From the NCBI GenBank assembly GCA_018334055.1, contig JAGXSS010000099.1:1-41356 (forward strand): a stretch of 41,356 nucleotides of DNA. Direction: 5' to 3'. The position numbers were made by a program, and so were the translations under genes. The notes below the pieces were generated by a model. The model had not been told where the DNA came from. It worked only from the letters and a program-made list of their open reading frames with translations, and made no database searches. This document shows positions 12,101 to 17,712 of the stretch, piece by piece (position 1 is the first letter of the stretch; every line of letters starts with the position of its first letter). The DNA comes from Peptococcaceae bacterium (GTDB lineage: Bacteria; Bacillota; UBA994).

Positions 12101-12302
12101 GCACCTCATCCTCCCCAGATTTGTCATTCAAGTAGGCCAGGCCCTTGGTCAGGGCCTCGTTGAGGTAGCGAGCAAGCAGGGGCTCGGCCGCCGCGCCGTC
12201 AAGTGGCACCATCTCTGTTTCTGTGCCCTGCCCGAGAGTCTGCAGGCCATTCTGGGTAGCGAGATTGACGATTTGTTCGTAAATTCCTAGTGGAAGGTGC
12301 AT
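9150..12302 (-). CDS. PLD-nuclease / superfamily 2 helicase / DUF3427 protein
   Basis: 1050 residues. A phospholipase-D-like nuclease domain at about 145-290 has HAK (227-229) and GSSNLSGA (245-252), the HxK and GS-N elements of one HKD half-site. A superfamily 2 helicase follows, with Walker A TGTGKT (351-356), Walker B DEFHH (446-450), LTATPERLDG, and motif VI QQLGRGLRL at about 645. The C-terminal 250 residues match DUF3427. Such proteins are thought to remodel and cut DNA, and they occur as isolated genes and in defence islands; no precise role is established. The start is supported by GGGAGATGAGCC before the ATG. A small membrane protein gene lies 65 bp upstream on the same strand. Confidence 0.9.
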   Translation of the reverse strand: MHLPLGIYEQIVNLATQNGLQTLGQGTETEMVPLDGAAAEPLLARYLNEALTKGLAYLNDKSGEDEVLRRQVDACNRLIKLMADLTDEDDLLDWTIGPARQLLLAVLDRQSLSPTLTPARHQSLPRPATTLSISTLLTGSAHEPSMLSELKKEILTADRIDLLVSFIKWSGLRLILGELQTFTRTKPLRVITTSYMGATDLKAIMELVQLPGARIKVSYDTRSTRLHAKSYMFIRESGFSTAYVGSSNLSGAAIGGGLEWNVKVTAKDMPHVFRHLEATFETYWNDGDFQDYSAEDEPVLRAALGTERSGDLTSPLFFRIVPYPFQQEILERLEAERNLHGNYRNLVVAATGTGKTVISAFDYQRFCRQNPKLPNRLLFVAHRREILQQSLQCFRTILRDNNFGAMLSGQDRPEALNHLFVSIQSFNSQDFTKLIPKDYYDYIVVDEFHHAAAPSYQDLLTHCRPKILLGLTATPERLDGQDIASRYFGGRLAAEVRLPEAINRQLLAPFQYFGVSDAVDISKIRFERGRYDIAQLEKVYTGNDLRTDAILRALRRYVDRLDRVVGLGFCVSVAHAKYMAARFTQHGVPAMALHGDSTPEERETAKSRLTKGEVCFIFTVDLYNEGVDLPEVNTILFLRPTESLTVFLQQLGRGLRLCEGKELLTVLDFIGHAHRQYSFEAKFRVLLGRTARGVPREISDGFPSLPRGCHILLEAVAQEIILANIQESILTRANLIDKIRNLMLDTGQQPTLGSFLRAFENLRPADIYKRGTFTSLRSEAAPGTREHQLDEQTMSKAFLRLSRIDSRRWICFLRDCLRGGLPSILSEEELRMTRMFHYTVWQKVPSAMNLPSARQGFSIVQQDTLLRAELGELLDYCYDRIDFVDKRVALAFVCPLDLHCTYSRDEILAAVGLWTDDVRPEVREGVKWLPEQRADLLFVNLHKDEKNFSPTTMYQDYAISETLFHWQTQSTTSAQSPTAQRYFNHRRLGSQVLLFVREHKMLKNQAQPYTYLGKANYVSHTGSRPVSIIWRLEEPMPLSLLPAALKAGAI

Positions 12303-12367
12303 GGCTCATCTCCCTCAGGCATTTGCCCTCGACAATTTTATGTGCTTGGTCGTGCTTGGTCTCTCGA

Positions 12368-12604
12368 TTACCGAAATTGGAGCGTAAATATCAACACCAA
12401 CAGCATTAGCCCCACCACGAGACCCAGCACCTTCACCGCGATGTCCTTGGCGCGGTCATATTCCGCGGTCTTGCCGGCAACATGATAGTGGAGGGCCAGT
12501 GCGCAGGCCACCAGGAACATCACAACGGCCGCCCAAGCGATAAACATCACCAGCATGGTTAGCACTCCACCGAGATTAAATCCTAAGCTCATTCCCATCT
12601 TCAT
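12368..12604 (-). CDS. Small two-TM membrane protein
   Basis: 78 residues from the ATG at 12604 (MKMGMSLGFNLGGVLTMLVM), directly behind GGAGGGAGGG; the second ATG at 12598 is also well placed. A longer reading from 12658 has no ribosome binding site. There are two hydrophobic helices, about 10-35 and 52-75, joined by a charged loop (HYHVAGKTAEYDRAKDIAVK). I do not recognise a family. It is the only gene between a good promoter (12685-12713) and the PLD-helicase gene, so the two may form an operon. Whether they work together is open. Confidence 0.7.
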   Translation of the reverse strand: MKMGMSLGFNLGGVLTMLVMFIAWAAVVMFLVACALALHYHVAGKTAEYDRAKDIAVKVLGLVVGLMLLVLIFTLQFR

Positions 12605-12684
12605 CCCTCCCTCCGTTACTTTAAAAGCAGGGTCGATACAACCCATGAGTTCATCCAACTTATCTGCGCTACTACCATGATATT

Positions 12685-12713
12685 ATAATAGGCAGTGGTT
12701 CCCAGAAAGTCAA
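12685..12713 (-). promoter_or_regulatory. Promoter for the small membrane protein and helicase genes
   Basis: On the minus strand TTGACT (12713-12708) and TATTAT (12690-12685) are 17 bp apart. An overlapping TATAAT lies three bases further on. The leader to the small gene's start is about 75 bases. Confidence 0.7.
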
Positions 12714-12739
12714 TTAGGGGCGATTGCCTTGGCAAAATT

Positions 12740-12768
12740 TTGACCTGGCCTACAGTTTAGGGTACAAT
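12740..12768 (+). promoter_or_regulatory. deoD: Promoter of deoD
   Basis: TTGACC (12740-12745) and TACAAT (12763-12768) are 17 bp apart, 35 bp before the deoD start. It is back to back with the minus-strand promoter at 12685-12713. Confidence 0.7.
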
Positions 12769-12803
12769 TTAAGCAGAAAGTCAACCTATTTAGGAGGTCA
12801 AAG

Positions 12804-13511
12804 ATGATTCCAACACCACATATTGGGGTAATGGAGCAGGGGATAATTGCGGAGACCATATTGCTGCCTGGCGACCCCCTGCGCGCGAAGTTTATTGCGG
12901 ATAAATATCTTCCGGATGCCGTGCAGTTTAACACTGTGCGGAATATGTTCGGCTACACCGGTACATACTGTGGCAAGAAGATATCGGTCATGGGCACCGG
13001 CATGGGCATGCCCTCTATCGGCATATACTCACATGAGTTGATCCACCTTTATGGAGTAAAGAACTTGATCCGGGTAGGGTCCTGTGGCTCCTTCCAAGCG
13101 GAGGTCAAAGTGCGGGACATAGTTATCGGGATGGCCGCCTCTACCAACTCGAATTACGCCAGCCAGTACGGACTGCCGGGCACCTACGCCCCCACAGCCT
13201 CGTGGTCGCTTTTAAAGAAGGCGGTGGATGTCGCCGCCGGTAAAGGGATACCGGTCAAGGTGGGGAACATCCTCTCCTCCGACATCTTCTATGATGACAA
13301 CCCAGAAGCCTGGAAGAAATGGGCTCGTATGGGCATTATGGCGGTGGAAATGGAGGCGGCAGCCCTCTATATGAATGCCAATCGCGCTGGGGTTAATGCC
13401 TTGTGCTTGTTGACGGTTTCAGATTCTTTAGTCACGCACGAGTTGGTGTCAGCCGAGGAGCGGCAAAATACTTTTACCCAAATGATGGAAATCGCCTTAG
13501 AATTAGCATGA
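12804..13511 (+). CDS. deoD: Purine-nucleoside phosphorylase, DeoD type
   Basis: 235 residues, the usual length of the hexameric bacterial enzyme. It cleaves purine (deoxy)nucleosides with phosphate to free base and (deoxy)ribose-1-phosphate in the cytoplasm, serving purine salvage. Visible motifs are GDPLRAK (phosphate-binding Arg at 27), VRNMFGYTG (Arg 46), [21 protein letters not shown] (Arg 90), VEMEAAALY (sugar-binding Glu 184) and SDSLVT (base-binding Asp 207). All key residues are present. The start follows TAGGAGGTCAAAG. A 40-residue peptide gene follows 37 bp downstream and is probably co-transcribed up to the terminator near 13694-13726. Confidence 0.97.
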
Positions 13512-13548
13512 CCAAGAAGCGGTAAGTCACACAATGGGAGGGTTGAAC

Positions 13549-13671
13549 ATGTTGAAGGGAAACAATAAGTACCTTGTCATCGCCGTAGTTGTGGTAGTGC
13601 TGGTCGTTGCCGGAGTCTTTATTTGGCCCATGCTGGTGCCGGCCGCGCCGGCGGCTTGTCCGACCTGCTAG
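13549..13671 (+). CDS. 40-residue membrane peptide ending in CPTC
   Basis: A small gene with a good ribosome binding site (GGGAGGGTTGAAC before the ATG). The peptide begins MLKGNNKYLVIAVVVVVLVV. A single strongly hydrophobic helix spans about residues 8-31, then a short Pro/Ala stretch ends in ACPTC. The Lys-rich N-terminus and the helix indicate a membrane-anchored peptide with its CXXC outside the cytoplasm, or a signal-anchored redox or metal-binding tail. It lies between deoD and a terminator, so it is probably expressed with deoD. No family is recognised. Confidence 0.65.
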   Translation: MLKGNNKYLVIAVVVVVLVVAGVFIWPMLVPAAPAACPTC

Positions 13672-13693
13672 TCTCGCCGTAAACACATGGCCA

Positions 13694-13726
13694 AAAGATC
13701 GTCTCCCTCAGGGAAGGCGGTCTTTT
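13694..13726 (+). terminator. Terminator after deoD and the CPTC peptide gene
   Basis: AAAGATCGTCTCCCT pairs with AGGGAAGGCGGTCTTT through G-U pairs and one bulge, with a two-base loop, followed by T residues. It lies between converging genes and may serve both strands. Confidence 0.7.
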
Positions 13727-13740
13727 TCGTTGTTTGTTGC

Positions 13741-15351
13741 CTAGTAGCAGGCAATATGCCCATCCGTGCGCGATTCAGTGCCGCCGCAGAGTACGCCCGT
13801 GTGAGGGTCGCGCCAGATAATTTGACCGCGCCCAAAGCTCGTGCTTTCCAAAGTGCGTACCACCTGGTGCCCCTGCCTGTTCAGGGCCTGCGCCAGGTGG
13901 TTAGGGAAGGTAGGCTCGACATGCAGGGTGTTGCCACTAATCCACTGCCAGCGCGGTGCGTCCAGCGCGGCCTGGGGGTTGTGGTTAAAATCAAGGCAGT
14001 TCATGAGCACCTGCACATGTGCTTGGGGCTGCATAAAGCCACCCATCACCCCGAAGGGTCCCATAGCCTGTTTATGGTGCGTCAAAAAGCCGGGGATGAT
14101 GGTGTGGTAGGGCCTCTTGCCCCCGGCGAGGACGTTAATGTGCCCCTCGTCCAGCGTGAAGCTGTTGCCGCGATTTTGCAGCGCAATGCCCGTCCCGGGG
14201 ATGACGATGCGCGAGCCAAAGCCCATGTAGTTGCTCTGGATGTAGCTCACCATATTCCCTTCGCCATCGGCTGTCGCCAAGTAGACCGTGCCTCCCCTCT
14301 GGGGAATGAGGGGCTCCGGGATATTGGCCCGTGCGGTAATGCCGAGCCTACAGCGGCGGGCGAAATCGTCGCTTAGTAGTTCCGCGGTCGTGACCTGCAT
14401 GTAGTTGGGGTCGGTGATATGCTTGAACCCAATACTGAACGCGATTTTAATGGCTTCAATTTGTTGGTGGCAGGTTTCTAGCGTGAGGGCTCCACTAAAT
14501 GGCAATTCCTTAAGGATGTTGAGGGCGATTAGGCTAACCAACCCTTGCCCGTTGGGCGGCAATTGCCACACTTCGTAGCCGCGATAATCCACCGCGATGG
14601 GAGTAACCCACTCCGGCCGATAATTTTCGAGGTCAGTTTTCTCTAAGAAGCCCCCATGTTGCCTGGCGAAGGCGACCATTTTTTCGGCCAATTCCCCGCG
14701 ATAAAATGATTCCCCCTTAGTGGCGGCAATGCTCGCTAACGTGGCGGCATGCTCGGGCGAGCGCCATACTTCGCCGATTTCCGGCGGGTGACCATGGGGT
14801 GCAAACAGCGCAAAATACGGTTCATATTCCGCCCCCTTAAACTGCCCGCGGTCGGCCAGCAAAGCGCCTTTCCAGCTGCGACCCAAGGTGGGGGAGAGGG
14901 GGAAGCCGCCTTCAGCCAGTTCAATGGCCGGCGCGAGTACTGTGGTGAGCGGTAGCTTGCCCAGGCGCGCCGACATCTCCGCCCACCCTGCCGGAGCCCC
15001 CGGTACAGTCACCGGCAACCAGCCAAACTTAGGCATTTCGGTGTGACCTAAAGCTTTGAGGGCGGCCACCGAGATGCTTTGCGGCGCGGGGCCGCTGGCA
15101 TTTAATCCGTGGAGCCGGCCTTGGTGCCAGATTAAGGCAAAAGCGTCGCTCCCAATGCCATTGGCCGTAGGTTCTACCACCGTCAGGCAGGCCGCGGTGG
15201 CAATGGCGGCATCGACGGCATTGCCACCTTGACGCAAGATGCTTTGCCCGGCTTCGGCAGCTAAGGGTTGCGAGGCGGCCACCATGCCGCGGCTGGCATA
15301 AGTAGCCATGCGCTGGGCGGCATGGGGGTAGTAGAGCGGGTCAAATTTCAT
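13741..15351 (-). CDS. Gamma-glutamyltransferase-family Ntn hydrolase (YwrD-like)
   Basis: 536 residues, the full length of the family. These enzymes are made as one chain and cut themselves before a catalytic Thr. Here QRGGTVYLATADGEGNMVSY places that Thr at 355. The N-terminal GMVAASQPLAAEAGQSILRQ followed by GGNAVDAAIATAA, the LPPNGQG loop and the C-terminal FGVMGGFMQPQAHVQV are typical. There is no signal peptide, unlike secreted glutathione-cleaving members, so a cytoplasmic YwrD-like enzyme is more likely; its natural substrate is uncertain. The start follows GAGGAGGTTCGCC. It converges on the deoD unit and is divergent from the ribbon-helix-helix gene. Confidence 0.9.
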   Translation of the reverse strand: MKFDPLYYPHAAQRMATYASRGMVAASQPLAAEAGQSILRQGGNAVDAAIATAACLTVVEPTANGIGSDAFALIWHQGRLHGLNASGPAPQSISVAALKALGHTEMPKFGWLPVTVPGAPAGWAEMSARLGKLPLTTVLAPAIELAEGGFPLSPTLGRSWKGALLADRGQFKGAEYEPYFALFAPHGHPPEIGEVWRSPEHAATLASIAATKGESFYRGELAEKMVAFARQHGGFLEKTDLENYRPEWVTPIAVDYRGYEVWQLPPNGQGLVSLIALNILKELPFSGALTLETCHQQIEAIKIAFSIGFKHITDPNYMQVTTAELLSDDFARRCRLGITARANIPEPLIPQRGGTVYLATADGEGNMVSYIQSNYMGFGSRIVIPGTGIALQNRGNSFTLDEGHINVLAGGKRPYHTIIPGFLTHHKQAMGPFGVMGGFMQPQAHVQVLMNCLDFNHNPQAALDAPRWQWISGNTLHVEPTFPNHLAQALNRQGHQVVRTLESTSFGRGQIIWRDPHTGVLCGGTESRTDGHIACY

Positions 15352-15435: not shown

Positions 15436-15464
15436 TTGACCTCCCCTATGTTTTGCGATATACT
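15436..15464 (+). promoter_or_regulatory. Promoter of the RHH-ABC operon
   Basis: TTGACC (15436-15441) and TATACT (15459-15464) are 17 bp apart, about 80 bp upstream of the regulator's start codon. The -10 overlaps the inverted repeat at 15460-15488. Confidence 0.75.
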
Positions 15465-15488
15465 CCACCTGGATGGCTAGTGGAGTAT
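15460..15488. promoter_or_regulatory. Perfect inverted-repeat operator, probably for the RHH regulator
   Basis: ATACTCCAC and GTGGAGTAT, 9-base perfect arms 11 bp apart, start inside the -10 box and cover the likely transcription start. Binding here would block transcription. The gene directly downstream encodes a ribbon-helix-helix protein, a class that binds such repeats as dimers of dimers, so autoregulation is the natural reading. Confidence 0.7.
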
Positions 15489-15545
15489 GAAACACACAAA
15501 ACAAAGGGAATGTCTTTTTGTTTCCCCAGTGAAAGGATTGAGCTT

Positions 15546-15980
15546 ATGCCTGACCAAGAAAAAGTTACCATCAACCTCAGCATTGTCGACCTAGGCAAGA
15601 TGGACTATTTAGTGGACCAAGGTTTCTACAGTAACCGCAGTGAGTTTGTGCGGACCGCCGTGCGTAACCAGCTGAAAGTACATGACCCCGTTGTTTCTGA
15701 CGAGTCGCTGCGCGGCAAGATGATTAGTATATCCACCGAGACCCCTGAGGTGCGGAGCGTCTGGGCCATTGGCGTTTTTAAACTCGACAAAGCGCTGGTG
15801 CAGCGGCACCTAAAGAGCGGCACCAAGATTAGCATCTTCGTTGTCGGCTCGCTCCTGGTGGACGAGGCAGTAACTTTGCCCATGCTCGAAGAGACGGTTC
15901 ACTCGGCGAAAGTTTATGGCTCCATCAGTGGACAGCCTGAGGTGGTCAAGTTCCTGAAGGAGGGCATGCACCATGATTGA
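15546..15980 (+). CDS. Ribbon-helix-helix (CopG/MetJ-type) transcriptional regulator
   Basis: 144 residues. The N-terminal 45 residues (KVTINLSIVDLGKMDYLVDQ, then GFYSNRSEFVRTAVRNQL) are a textbook ribbon-helix-helix domain: a beta strand that reads DNA and two helices that form the dimer. The remaining 95 residues form a separate domain (VWAIGVFKLDKALVQRHLKS onward) that may sense a ligand. It lacks the His/Cys set of nickel-binding NikR. The ATG at 15546 follows AAAGGA; an upstream in-frame extension has no support and would cover the promoter. Its stop overlaps the start of the first ABC gene (ATGATTGA), so it almost certainly controls that exporter. Confidence 0.88.
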   Translation: MPDQEKVTINLSIVDLGKMDYLVDQGFYSNRSEFVRTAVRNQLKVHDPVVSDESLRGKMISISTETPEVRSVWAIGVFKLDKALVQRHLKSGTKISIFVVGSLLVDEAVTLPMLEETVHSAKVYGSISGQPEVVKFLKEGMHHD

Positions 15981-17712
15981 GCAGGTGAAGCGACTCTGGC
16001 CACTGCTGCCGAGGAAGGATAGGTTATTCTTTGTGGTGGTCGCGGCCCTGCTCCGCGTGGGTTTTGCAATTTTTACGGCGCACTGGGCACGTCTGGTGCT
16101 AGACGCCCTTGTCGCGCGGGACAACAGCGCCATATACTACTTGCTGCGCTTGGCGGTTTTCGTCCTCCTAGGCGAGATGATTATTCGCTACCTGCAAATT
16201 AAGGTTGCGGGCACCTTCGCCGAAACGAGCATAGCGGCTTTACGTGAAAAAATTGCGACGCACCTTTTGCGGGTAAAAATGTCCGATTTCAACAAGCAAC
16301 ACAGCGGCGACTACATATCTAGACTGACGAACGACCTCGGTCGGGTGCAAGAGTTTGTGACGCAAACCTTGGGCAATATCATCTTTTTGCCCCTCGCCGC
16401 CGTGTTCGCCCTGGCCTATATGCTCTACGCCTCGTGGCAGCTGACCGCGATTGTTGTTTTGGGCGCCCCGCTCCTCTTGGTGACCGCCACCGTCCTCGGG
16501 GCGCCCATCGGGCGACTCAGCAAGGAGCTGCAGGAAAAGTTGGCGGTAGCCACCACGCTGACCCAGGAGTCCACACAGGGCATGGAGGTGGCGCGAGCCT
16601 TTGGGTTAAAAGAGCACCTCGTTCGGCAATTTGCCCGCGCGGTCGATGAAGCGCGAAGATGCCAGTGGGCCTTGGTTGGGCGCCGCATGGCGATGGGCGG
16701 GGTCAGCTTCTTGCTCATGATTTTTTCTTTCTTCCTCTGTTTTGGCGTGGGAGGCTGGTTTGTCATCCGGGGCGATATCTCTATCGGCGAACTCATGGCC
16801 TTTGTGCAGCTCATGACCCACCTGACCGACCCCATGAGCCGCATGCCCCAGCTCTTGGCGGCGATGCGCTCGGAGTTGGCGGCAGCCGAGCGCGCGGTCG
16901 CCCTCTTAGCCCTCGAACCAGAAAGCACTGCGGGAATCGCACCCCAGGCGGTGGGTCCTACGGCTATAGAATTTGCCGAGGTGGACTTTCAGTATGAAGG
17001 GCGCGAAGAAAAGGCACTCGCCGGCTTGAGTTTTGTCGTACCGGAGGGGCAATGCGTGGCCTTGGTGGGGGCCAGCGGCAGTGGTAAGTCCACTTTGCTG
17101 CGTCTGGTTACCCGCCTCTATGCCCCCCAAAACGGGCAGGTTAGCGTCTTTGGTTTGCCTGCCGAACGGTGGCACCTAGAACGGCTGCGGGAGCAAGTGG
17201 CCGTGGTATCGCAGGATAATTTCTTGTTCCCCATTTCGGTGCTCGAGAATATCCGCTATGGATGGCCCGCAGCAACGGAGGACGAAGTTGTCGCCGCGGC
17301 CCAGGCGGCCTATGCCCATGAGTTTATTTTGGCTCTGCCCGAAGGGTATGCCACTATGGTGGGGGAGATGGGGGCTCGCCTCTCCGGCGGGCAGAAGCAG
17401 CGCCTGGCCCTGGCTCGCGCCTTTCTCAAGAACTCCCCTATTTTGCTCCTCGATGAGGCCACCTCAGCCCTAGATGTGCAGTCAGAAGTCCTCGTGCAGG
17501 AAGCCCTCGACACATTCATGCGCCAGCGCACCGTGCTCGTGGTGGCCCATCGTCTGACGACTATCATCCGCGCCGACCGCGTCTTGGTGCTCGATCAGGG
17601 GCGCATCATTGAGAGCGGCAAGCATCACGAACTCATGGCCAAGGGCGGCGCCTATGCCGACCTATATGCGCGCCAGTGGCGCACCAACTCGCCGGGAAAG
17701 GAGGCGGTTTAG
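15973..17712 (+). CDS. ABC exporter half-transporter (fused membrane and ATPase domains), first subunit
   Basis: 579 residues. Six membrane helices lie in the first 310 residues. The ATPase domain has Walker A GASGSGKSTLL, Q-loop VVSQDNFLFP, signature LSGGQKQRLALARAF, Walker B with catalytic Glu ILLLDEATSALD, and the switch His in VVAHRLTTI. All catalytic residues are present. It is a type IV (multidrug/lipid exporter) half-transporter. The identical length of the next gene, a half-transporter in the same operon, suggests a heterodimer of the BmrCD or TM287/288 kind. The start overlaps the regulator's stop, so expression is coupled. The substrate is unknown. Confidence 0.93.
   Translation: MIEQVKRLWPLLPRKDRLFFVVVAALLRVGFAIFTAHWARLVLDALVARDNSAIYYLLRLAVFVLLGEMIIRYLQIKVAGTFAETSIAALREKIATHLLRVKMSDFNKQHSGDYISRLTNDLGRVQEFVTQTLGNIIFLPLAAVFALAYMLYASWQLTAIVVLGAPLLLVTATVLGAPIGRLSKELQEKLAVATTLTQESTQGMEVARAFGLKEHLVRQFARAVDEARRCQWALVGRRMAMGGVSFLLMIFSFFLCFGVGGWFVIRGDISIGELMAFVQLMTHLTDPMSRMPQLLAAMRSELAAAERAVALLALEPESTAGIAPQAVGPTAIEFAEVDFQYEGREEKALAGLSFVVPEGQCVALVGASGSGKSTLLRLVTRLYAPQNGQVSVFGLPAERWHLERLREQVAVVSQDNFLFPISVLENIRYGWPAATEDEVVAAAQAAYAHEFILALPEGYATMVGEMGARLSGGQKQRLALARAFLKNSPILLLDEATSALDVQSEVLVQEALDTFMRQRTVLVVAHRLTTIIRADRVLVLDQGRIIESGKHHELMAKGGAYADLYARQWRTNSPGKEAV

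Follow-up and report, generated by a model that had tools for sequence, protein, structure and literature searches.

A constrained small membrane protein gene ending in CPTC behind deoD in two related bacteria

The deoD locus and its small downstream gene

The window, by which we mean the whole stretch of 41,356 nucleotides analysed here, carries a purine-nucleoside phosphorylase gene, deoD, and, 37 bases after the deoD stop codon, an open reading frame of 40 amino acids plus stop, translated as MLKGNNKYLVIAVVVVVLVVAGVFIWPMLVPAAPAACPTC. The features of this locus are listed below, where G000 is the genome of the window and G001 that of a sister species in the same genus.

12740..12768, plus strand: sigma-70-like promoter, TTGACC, 17 nt, TACAAT (10/12); the two hexamers are identical in G001 and lie within a conserved block
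12804..13511, plus strand: deoD, purine-nucleoside phosphorylase, first gene of the probable operon; Pfam PF01048, NCBIfam NF004489/TIGR00107 over cut-off
13536..13542, plus strand: ribosome binding site, GGGAGGG, spaced 6 nt from the ATG; its GGAGGG core is conserved in G001
13549..13671, plus strand: gene for the small membrane protein (40 aa and a stop codon); frame kept under selection
13573..13626, plus strand: predicted membrane helix core, residues 9-26 (hydropathy, AlphaFold2)
13657..13668, plus strand: C-terminal CPTC, Cys37 and Cys40; identical in G001
13693..13726, plus strand: predicted intrinsic terminator hairpin (fold); identical in G001; minus-strand site at 13716-13703

The initial annotation had claimed a good ribosome binding site and a C-terminal cysteine pair for this frame. 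Both are present in the sequence, and the ribosome-site region of the G001 ortholog reads AAAGGAGGGG at the equivalent position. An in-frame ATG lies upstream at 13534 but is not kept in G001; 13549 is therefore the better start, and the longer form was discarded. The peptide gene is present as a single copy in G000.

The terminator which had been proposed after the gene was also recovered, as an intrinsic hairpin carrying a U run. The fold of 13672-13730 reaches -24 kcal/mol (z -4.88), and none of 200 shuffles was as good. The ggt gene lies on the opposite strand at 13741-15351, with its end beyond the hairpin. An A-run and a U-run flank this structure, which could serve the convergent deoD-peptide and ggt units alike, and it may also end ggt transcripts coming from the other strand. 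The gene order in G001 is the same (deoD and the peptide gene, the terminator, then ggt on the opposite strand). As the promoter hexamers and the terminator are conserved there, deoD and the peptide gene probably form a two-gene operon. A search of Rfam with 12300-14000 returned one row only, mir-130, far below the gathering score.

In both species the peptide gene is flanked immediately by deoD and ggt. Past ggt the window encodes, at 15453-15980, an RHH regulator and, at 15973-17712, an ABC half-transporter of exporter layout with ABC_membrane and ABC_tran fused; the G001 contig stops short of this region. In G004, from a related genus, an RHH regulator and a pair of ABC transporter genes lie close to deoD (locus L084) and look by eye like the ones past ggt here; the peptide gene and ggt may thus be flanked by genes that are adjacent elsewhere. 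On the other side, a membrane ORF of up to 96 aa (12371-12658, minus strand) is divergent from deoD and has no Pfam match above its cut-off.

Selection on the reading frame

The G001 ortholog (E = 1.6e-17, 90% identity) has kept the frame, both cysteines and the stop. Over 41 aligned codons, the stop codon among them, the two copies differ by 17 substitutions, and there is one indel of 6 nt. Codon positions 1, 2 and 3 have taken 3, 1 and 13 of the substitutions, respectively (p = 3.4e-4). The Nei-Gojobori method counts 13 differences as synonymous and 4 as non-synonymous (Fisher p = 2.8e-6), while sorting of the base changes by whole codons gives 12 and 5, because the AAC/ACT pair beside the indel differs at two bases. 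For the same genome pair omega is 0.076 in the peptide gene, 0.026 in its tail, 0.109 in deoD and 0.053 in ggt.

How is this constraint distributed along the peptide? Residues 26-40, the tail, have 7 synonymous and 1 non-synonymous differences, and the helix with the N terminus has 6 and 3. No part of the peptide is under tighter constraint than the tail, WPMLVPAAPxACPTC, a result that rests on eight changes because only two sequences exist. The Cys37 codon is TGT/TGC between the species, and the codons of Cys37 and Pro38 have both changed synonymously, leaving CPTC unchanged.

When the 17 substitutions were dealt at random, a mean of 10.9 codons changed versus 4 observed (P = 0.00015), and a stop codon would arise in 32% of the trials. 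Both cysteines survived in 52% of the simulated placements; their retention alone is therefore no evidence, and it is the overall pattern that counts. The values of pS/pN are 0.417/0.045 in the sense frame of the peptide, 0.105/0.158 and 0/0.193 in the other two sense frames, and 0.113/0.150, 0.364/0.074 and 0.032/0.187 in the antisense frames. The antisense frame sharing third positions with the peptide thus has pS above pN too, more weakly than the sense frame. A Thr-rich antisense frame over the peptide gene (13527-13631, minus strand) is open in G001 as well, and its excess of pS probably stems from the third positions that it has in common with the real gene.

Frame and tail are under constraint between the two species, with synonymous and non-synonymous changes clearly unequal, the opposite of the case that the initial annotation had named as its refutation. 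Judged by this pattern of substitution, selection has maintained 13549-13671 as a real small gene in both of these related bacteria, and the initial annotation of an easily missed small membrane gene is supported.

Distribution and resemblance to a binding-protein anchor

Full-length matches were found in two of the 15 genomes of the class, by profile search, and in two of 398 phylum genomes, the latter a sample from a larger group. The other 13 class genomes gave no peptide either in the profile search or on reading the DNA behind deoD. Together with G017 we read 16 loci downstream of deoD; the peptide was present in 2 and absent from 14, one of which (G013) offers only about 180 nt before the contig end. 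In G002, a third species of the genus, no peptide was found by these means: deoD is followed by a GNAT acetyltransferase gene, ggt lies on a different contig, and no CPTC gene with a helix was detected. Two class genomes, G002 and G003, match through the anchors of BMP proteins only.

Five of the 398 phylum genomes match at E <= 0.001; outside the orthologous pair, the G002 match is a BMP anchor, and those of G035 and G144 lie inside frames of 263 and 406 codons. Among 101 genomes searched, 48 had some match at E <= 1, strong besides G000 only in G001; the remaining 46 had weaker, partial matches, the frames of about a dozen of which were examined. The DNA pattern of CPTC followed by a stop occurs at 15 places in the 15 class genomes (five of them read TGG, not a stop), and only the two orthologs there have a membrane helix. 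Other frames with a terminal CxxC, sought in a subset of the fetched loci, added one row, L016, whose frame is broken by a stop. The 27 pattern matches in viral contigs included no relative, and tblastn against plasmids gave no match. The contigs of GTDB 220 gave two loci, namely the G001 ortholog and a Larkinella stretch with 48% identity over residues 8-36. No fitting family exists in Pfam or NCBIfam, and no paper on the peptide was found among the titles and abstract openings screened. Relatives of the shape foreseen in the initial annotation (Lys-rich N terminus, one helix, terminal CXXC) come down to one ortholog and are otherwise nearly absent. The peptide gene is young or lineage-bound.

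In its own genome the peptide has only one other match, the N terminus of a 363-aa BMP protein (PF02608; E = 3.5e-4). The BMP anchor, MLKGNTKLLVAAVVALVVIIALVVVPPMLQEPEPA with a GTG start, and the first 35 residues of the peptide are 54% identical from the start to the Pro stalk. The BMP gene comes first in an apparent operon, ahead of genes for an ABC ATPase and two BPD_transp_2 permeases, a layout which we take to be that of a nucleoside importer (PnrA/BmpA-type systems). This importer and deoD are on different contigs. The BMP orthologs in G001, G002, G003 and G007 have the same kind of Cys-less anchor.

The alignment of the peptide with the BMP anchor, a short and compositionally biased resemblance, scores 85, and the maximum of 20000 segment-wise shuffles was 82. 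The Gumbel p of 4e-4 is a value per comparison for a match found by search, and it would no longer hold once corrected for the several hundred N-terminal helices; whole shuffles give p 7e-7. In the reverse search the peptide came out at 24 bits, ahead of three places at 12-15; BMP-like paralogues account for two of the three, one by Pfam and one by eye. Against the BMP anchor, 33 other N-terminal helices, several of which had been fetched as peptide-like, scored 58 at best. A protein of another kind, encoded by a 263-codon frame of a distant genome, has an anchor that reaches 72 with the peptide, versus 85 for BMP. The G001 peptide fits less well, as 25 of 1000 segment shuffles reach its score with the G000 BMP protein and 5 of 1000 with that of G001. 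At the DNA level 62 of 105 nt are identical and the same codon is used for 7 of 19 shared residues; on these figures no recent duplication is visible, and a recent duplication of the BMP gene was rejected. The resemblance is suggestive only, and common descent of the two anchors is possible but doubtful.

Three BMP-like proteins of G000 (L002, at G000:C3:36318-37409 on the minus strand, L080 and L081; L080 assigned by eye, the other two by Pfam) start with a Val-rich, Cys-less, apparently uncleaved anchor and not with a lipoprotein signal. The L002 orthologs of four related genomes (L044, L004, L006 and L014) have such a Val-rich Cys-less anchor too. Two other secreted-looking proteins, L073 and L075, putatively of this family, have the lipobox-like TAC/VAC.

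Topology, possible role and known systems

The clean membrane helix of the initial annotation is borne out by prediction: hydropathy reaches 3.06 over the best 19 residues and AlphaFold2, run on the two-sequence alignment, predicts one helix (3-29) and a loose tail with a mean pLDDT of 74.6. Its Lys-rich N terminus is a generous description of two lysines in the first eight residues. Two lysines, Lys3 and Lys7, stand ahead of the helix, and the residues beyond it carry no charged side chains, so by the positive-inside rule the peptide would be oriented N-in/C-out, and the tail is likely exposed.

Two of the ligands envisaged earlier for the CPTC tail did not stand, which leaves metal binding and disulfide formation as candidates. 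A c-type heme peptide was rejected, as the chain ends at CPTC and no His follows to form CXXCH. A lipid anchor was rejected at both cysteines: Cys37 is preceded by Pro at -3 in both species (PAAC in G000, PPAC in G001), at odds with the lipobox, and Cys40 is preceded by Thr. The peptide was also rejected as a FeoB-associated Cys-rich membrane protein, a family with basic residues after the helix; it has none there, and no such Pfam match at E <= 1. The G000 genome contains one DsbD_TM (CcdA/DsbD-type) match and two cytochrome c assembly (PF01578) matches, and neither a DsbA nor a VKOR match at E <= 0.001 (DsbB lay outside this search). With this inventory, the outer cysteines are more likely to stay reduced as a dithiol than to form a stable disulfide.

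Our preferred reading, a tentative one that we put somewhat below even, is as follows. The two-gene operon would yield DeoD and also a bitopic membrane protein of 40 residues, translated from a ribosome site of its own, with the N terminus inside and the C terminus outside. The helix would insert uncleaved, and a 15-residue Pro/Ala stalk would bear the CPTC dithiol on the outer face. The peptide could then act as a small accessory or regulatory subunit whose helix docks on a larger membrane protein and whose dithiol tail makes or senses the contact through metal, thiol exchange or an inter-subunit disulfide. The predicted anatomy (bitopic, tiny, single-copy, with an outer Cys pair and encoded after a housekeeping enzyme) matches that of membrane peptides with accessory or regulatory functions, and we give an accessory role about an even chance. 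Of the possible partners we place the nucleoside-type ABC importer first: it shares a pathway with DeoD, which its product would feed, and its binding protein carries a similar anchor. Naming this partner is a guess, and an unlikely one. It is more speculative still, and very doubtful, that a BMP anchor became a separate gene of the deoD operon, swapped its binding domain for the CPTC tail, and now serves as a thiol-controlled importer subunit tying nucleoside uptake to phosphorolysis and to the outer redox or metal state.

Other explanations of the constrained tail can be offered. The peptide might be a free-standing exofacial dithiol which binds a metal or thiol compound, or is a redox partner of CcdA or cytochrome c maturation, the tie to nucleosides being the shared operon only. 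The CPTC kept in G001, the DsbD_TM and PF01578 matches, and the missing DsbA and VKOR matches, by which outer thiols may stay reduced, are consistent with this. However, no recognised metal or redox gene directly adjoins, two cysteines alone make a weak metal site unless dimerised, and the peptide was not found in the other 13 class genomes; we regard this role as rather unlikely. Somewhat less probable is a propeptide whose signal peptide is cut after VPA (residue 32), releasing a secreted 8-mer, APAACPTC or APPACPTC, as a signal or metal ligand. V-P-A at 30-32 suits the -3/-1 rule of signal peptidase I in G000 and G001 alike, constraint is strongest in the tail, and the exporter-layout half-transporter past ggt is not far away. 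But a cleaved signal would be expected to have a shorter hydrophobic core than the roughly 18 residues here, Pro stands at -2, and the direct neighbours in both species are deoD and ggt, the G001 contig ending before the transporter region.

The size, the single helix and the lysines near the N terminus would also suit a small hydrophobic toxin of type I kind or another membrane-perturbing peptide. The position behind deoD with a good ribosome site, the single copy, and the absence of a minus-strand promoter-like site over the gene and on to 14000 make this highly improbable. Non-coding or decaying sequence, open by chance, is scarcely credible: the occurrence in two species only would agree with it, but the weight of changes on third positions, the substitution shuffle and the frequency with which a stop would arise argue against it.

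In our preferred reading the peptide is an accessory or regulatory bitopic protein, and several known systems can be set beside it. Its first 35 residues resemble the N-terminal anchor of the BMP/PnrA proteins (PF02608) of the same genus, and it differs from them by having no substrate-binding domain, no PF02608 match and a CPTC tail. CydX (37 aa) and CcoM (36 aa) are likewise under 40 residues and accessory to a large complex; each is a single helix. In contrast to them, no oxidase gene stands beside the peptide gene, and we know of no Cys tail in either. The CutF-like/DUF2946 proteins are described (PMC8456105) as 118 aa long, with a putative signal peptide, a central CxxC or CxxxC and a Pro-rich end, and as encoded beside copper oxidase genes. 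The outer Cys pair and the Pro residues are a likeness to these, whereas the peptide has its Cys pair at the very end and is encoded between deoD and ggt. Control of a downstream gene in the manner of CutF was rejected, since what comes next is a terminator and not a gene.

The nearest system by shape is MgrB of E. coli, a bitopic N-in/C-out protein of 47 aa which inhibits the sensor kinase PhoQ. It has two Lys at the N terminus and a short outer region with two conserved cysteines, which its action requires and whose loss has the greatest effect, and it is affected by redox state (PMC8404706). The peptide is similar in its predicted topology, two N-terminal Lys and outer Cys pair, but the cysteines of MgrB are C28 and C39 and not a terminal CxxC. 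Membership in the MgrB family was ruled out by BLASTP against MgrB, which gave no alignment at E <= 100, and by the lack of such a Pfam match at E <= 1. The peptide is a new orphan, probably of a known kind, the small bitopic membrane proteins of under about 50 aa, and it adds to them a well-supported, lineage-restricted gene with a constrained, probably exposed dithiol. Should the resemblance of the anchors reflect homology, a transporter component's anchor would have given rise to a small protein whose gene came to lie in the operon of the enzyme that acts next in the pathway.
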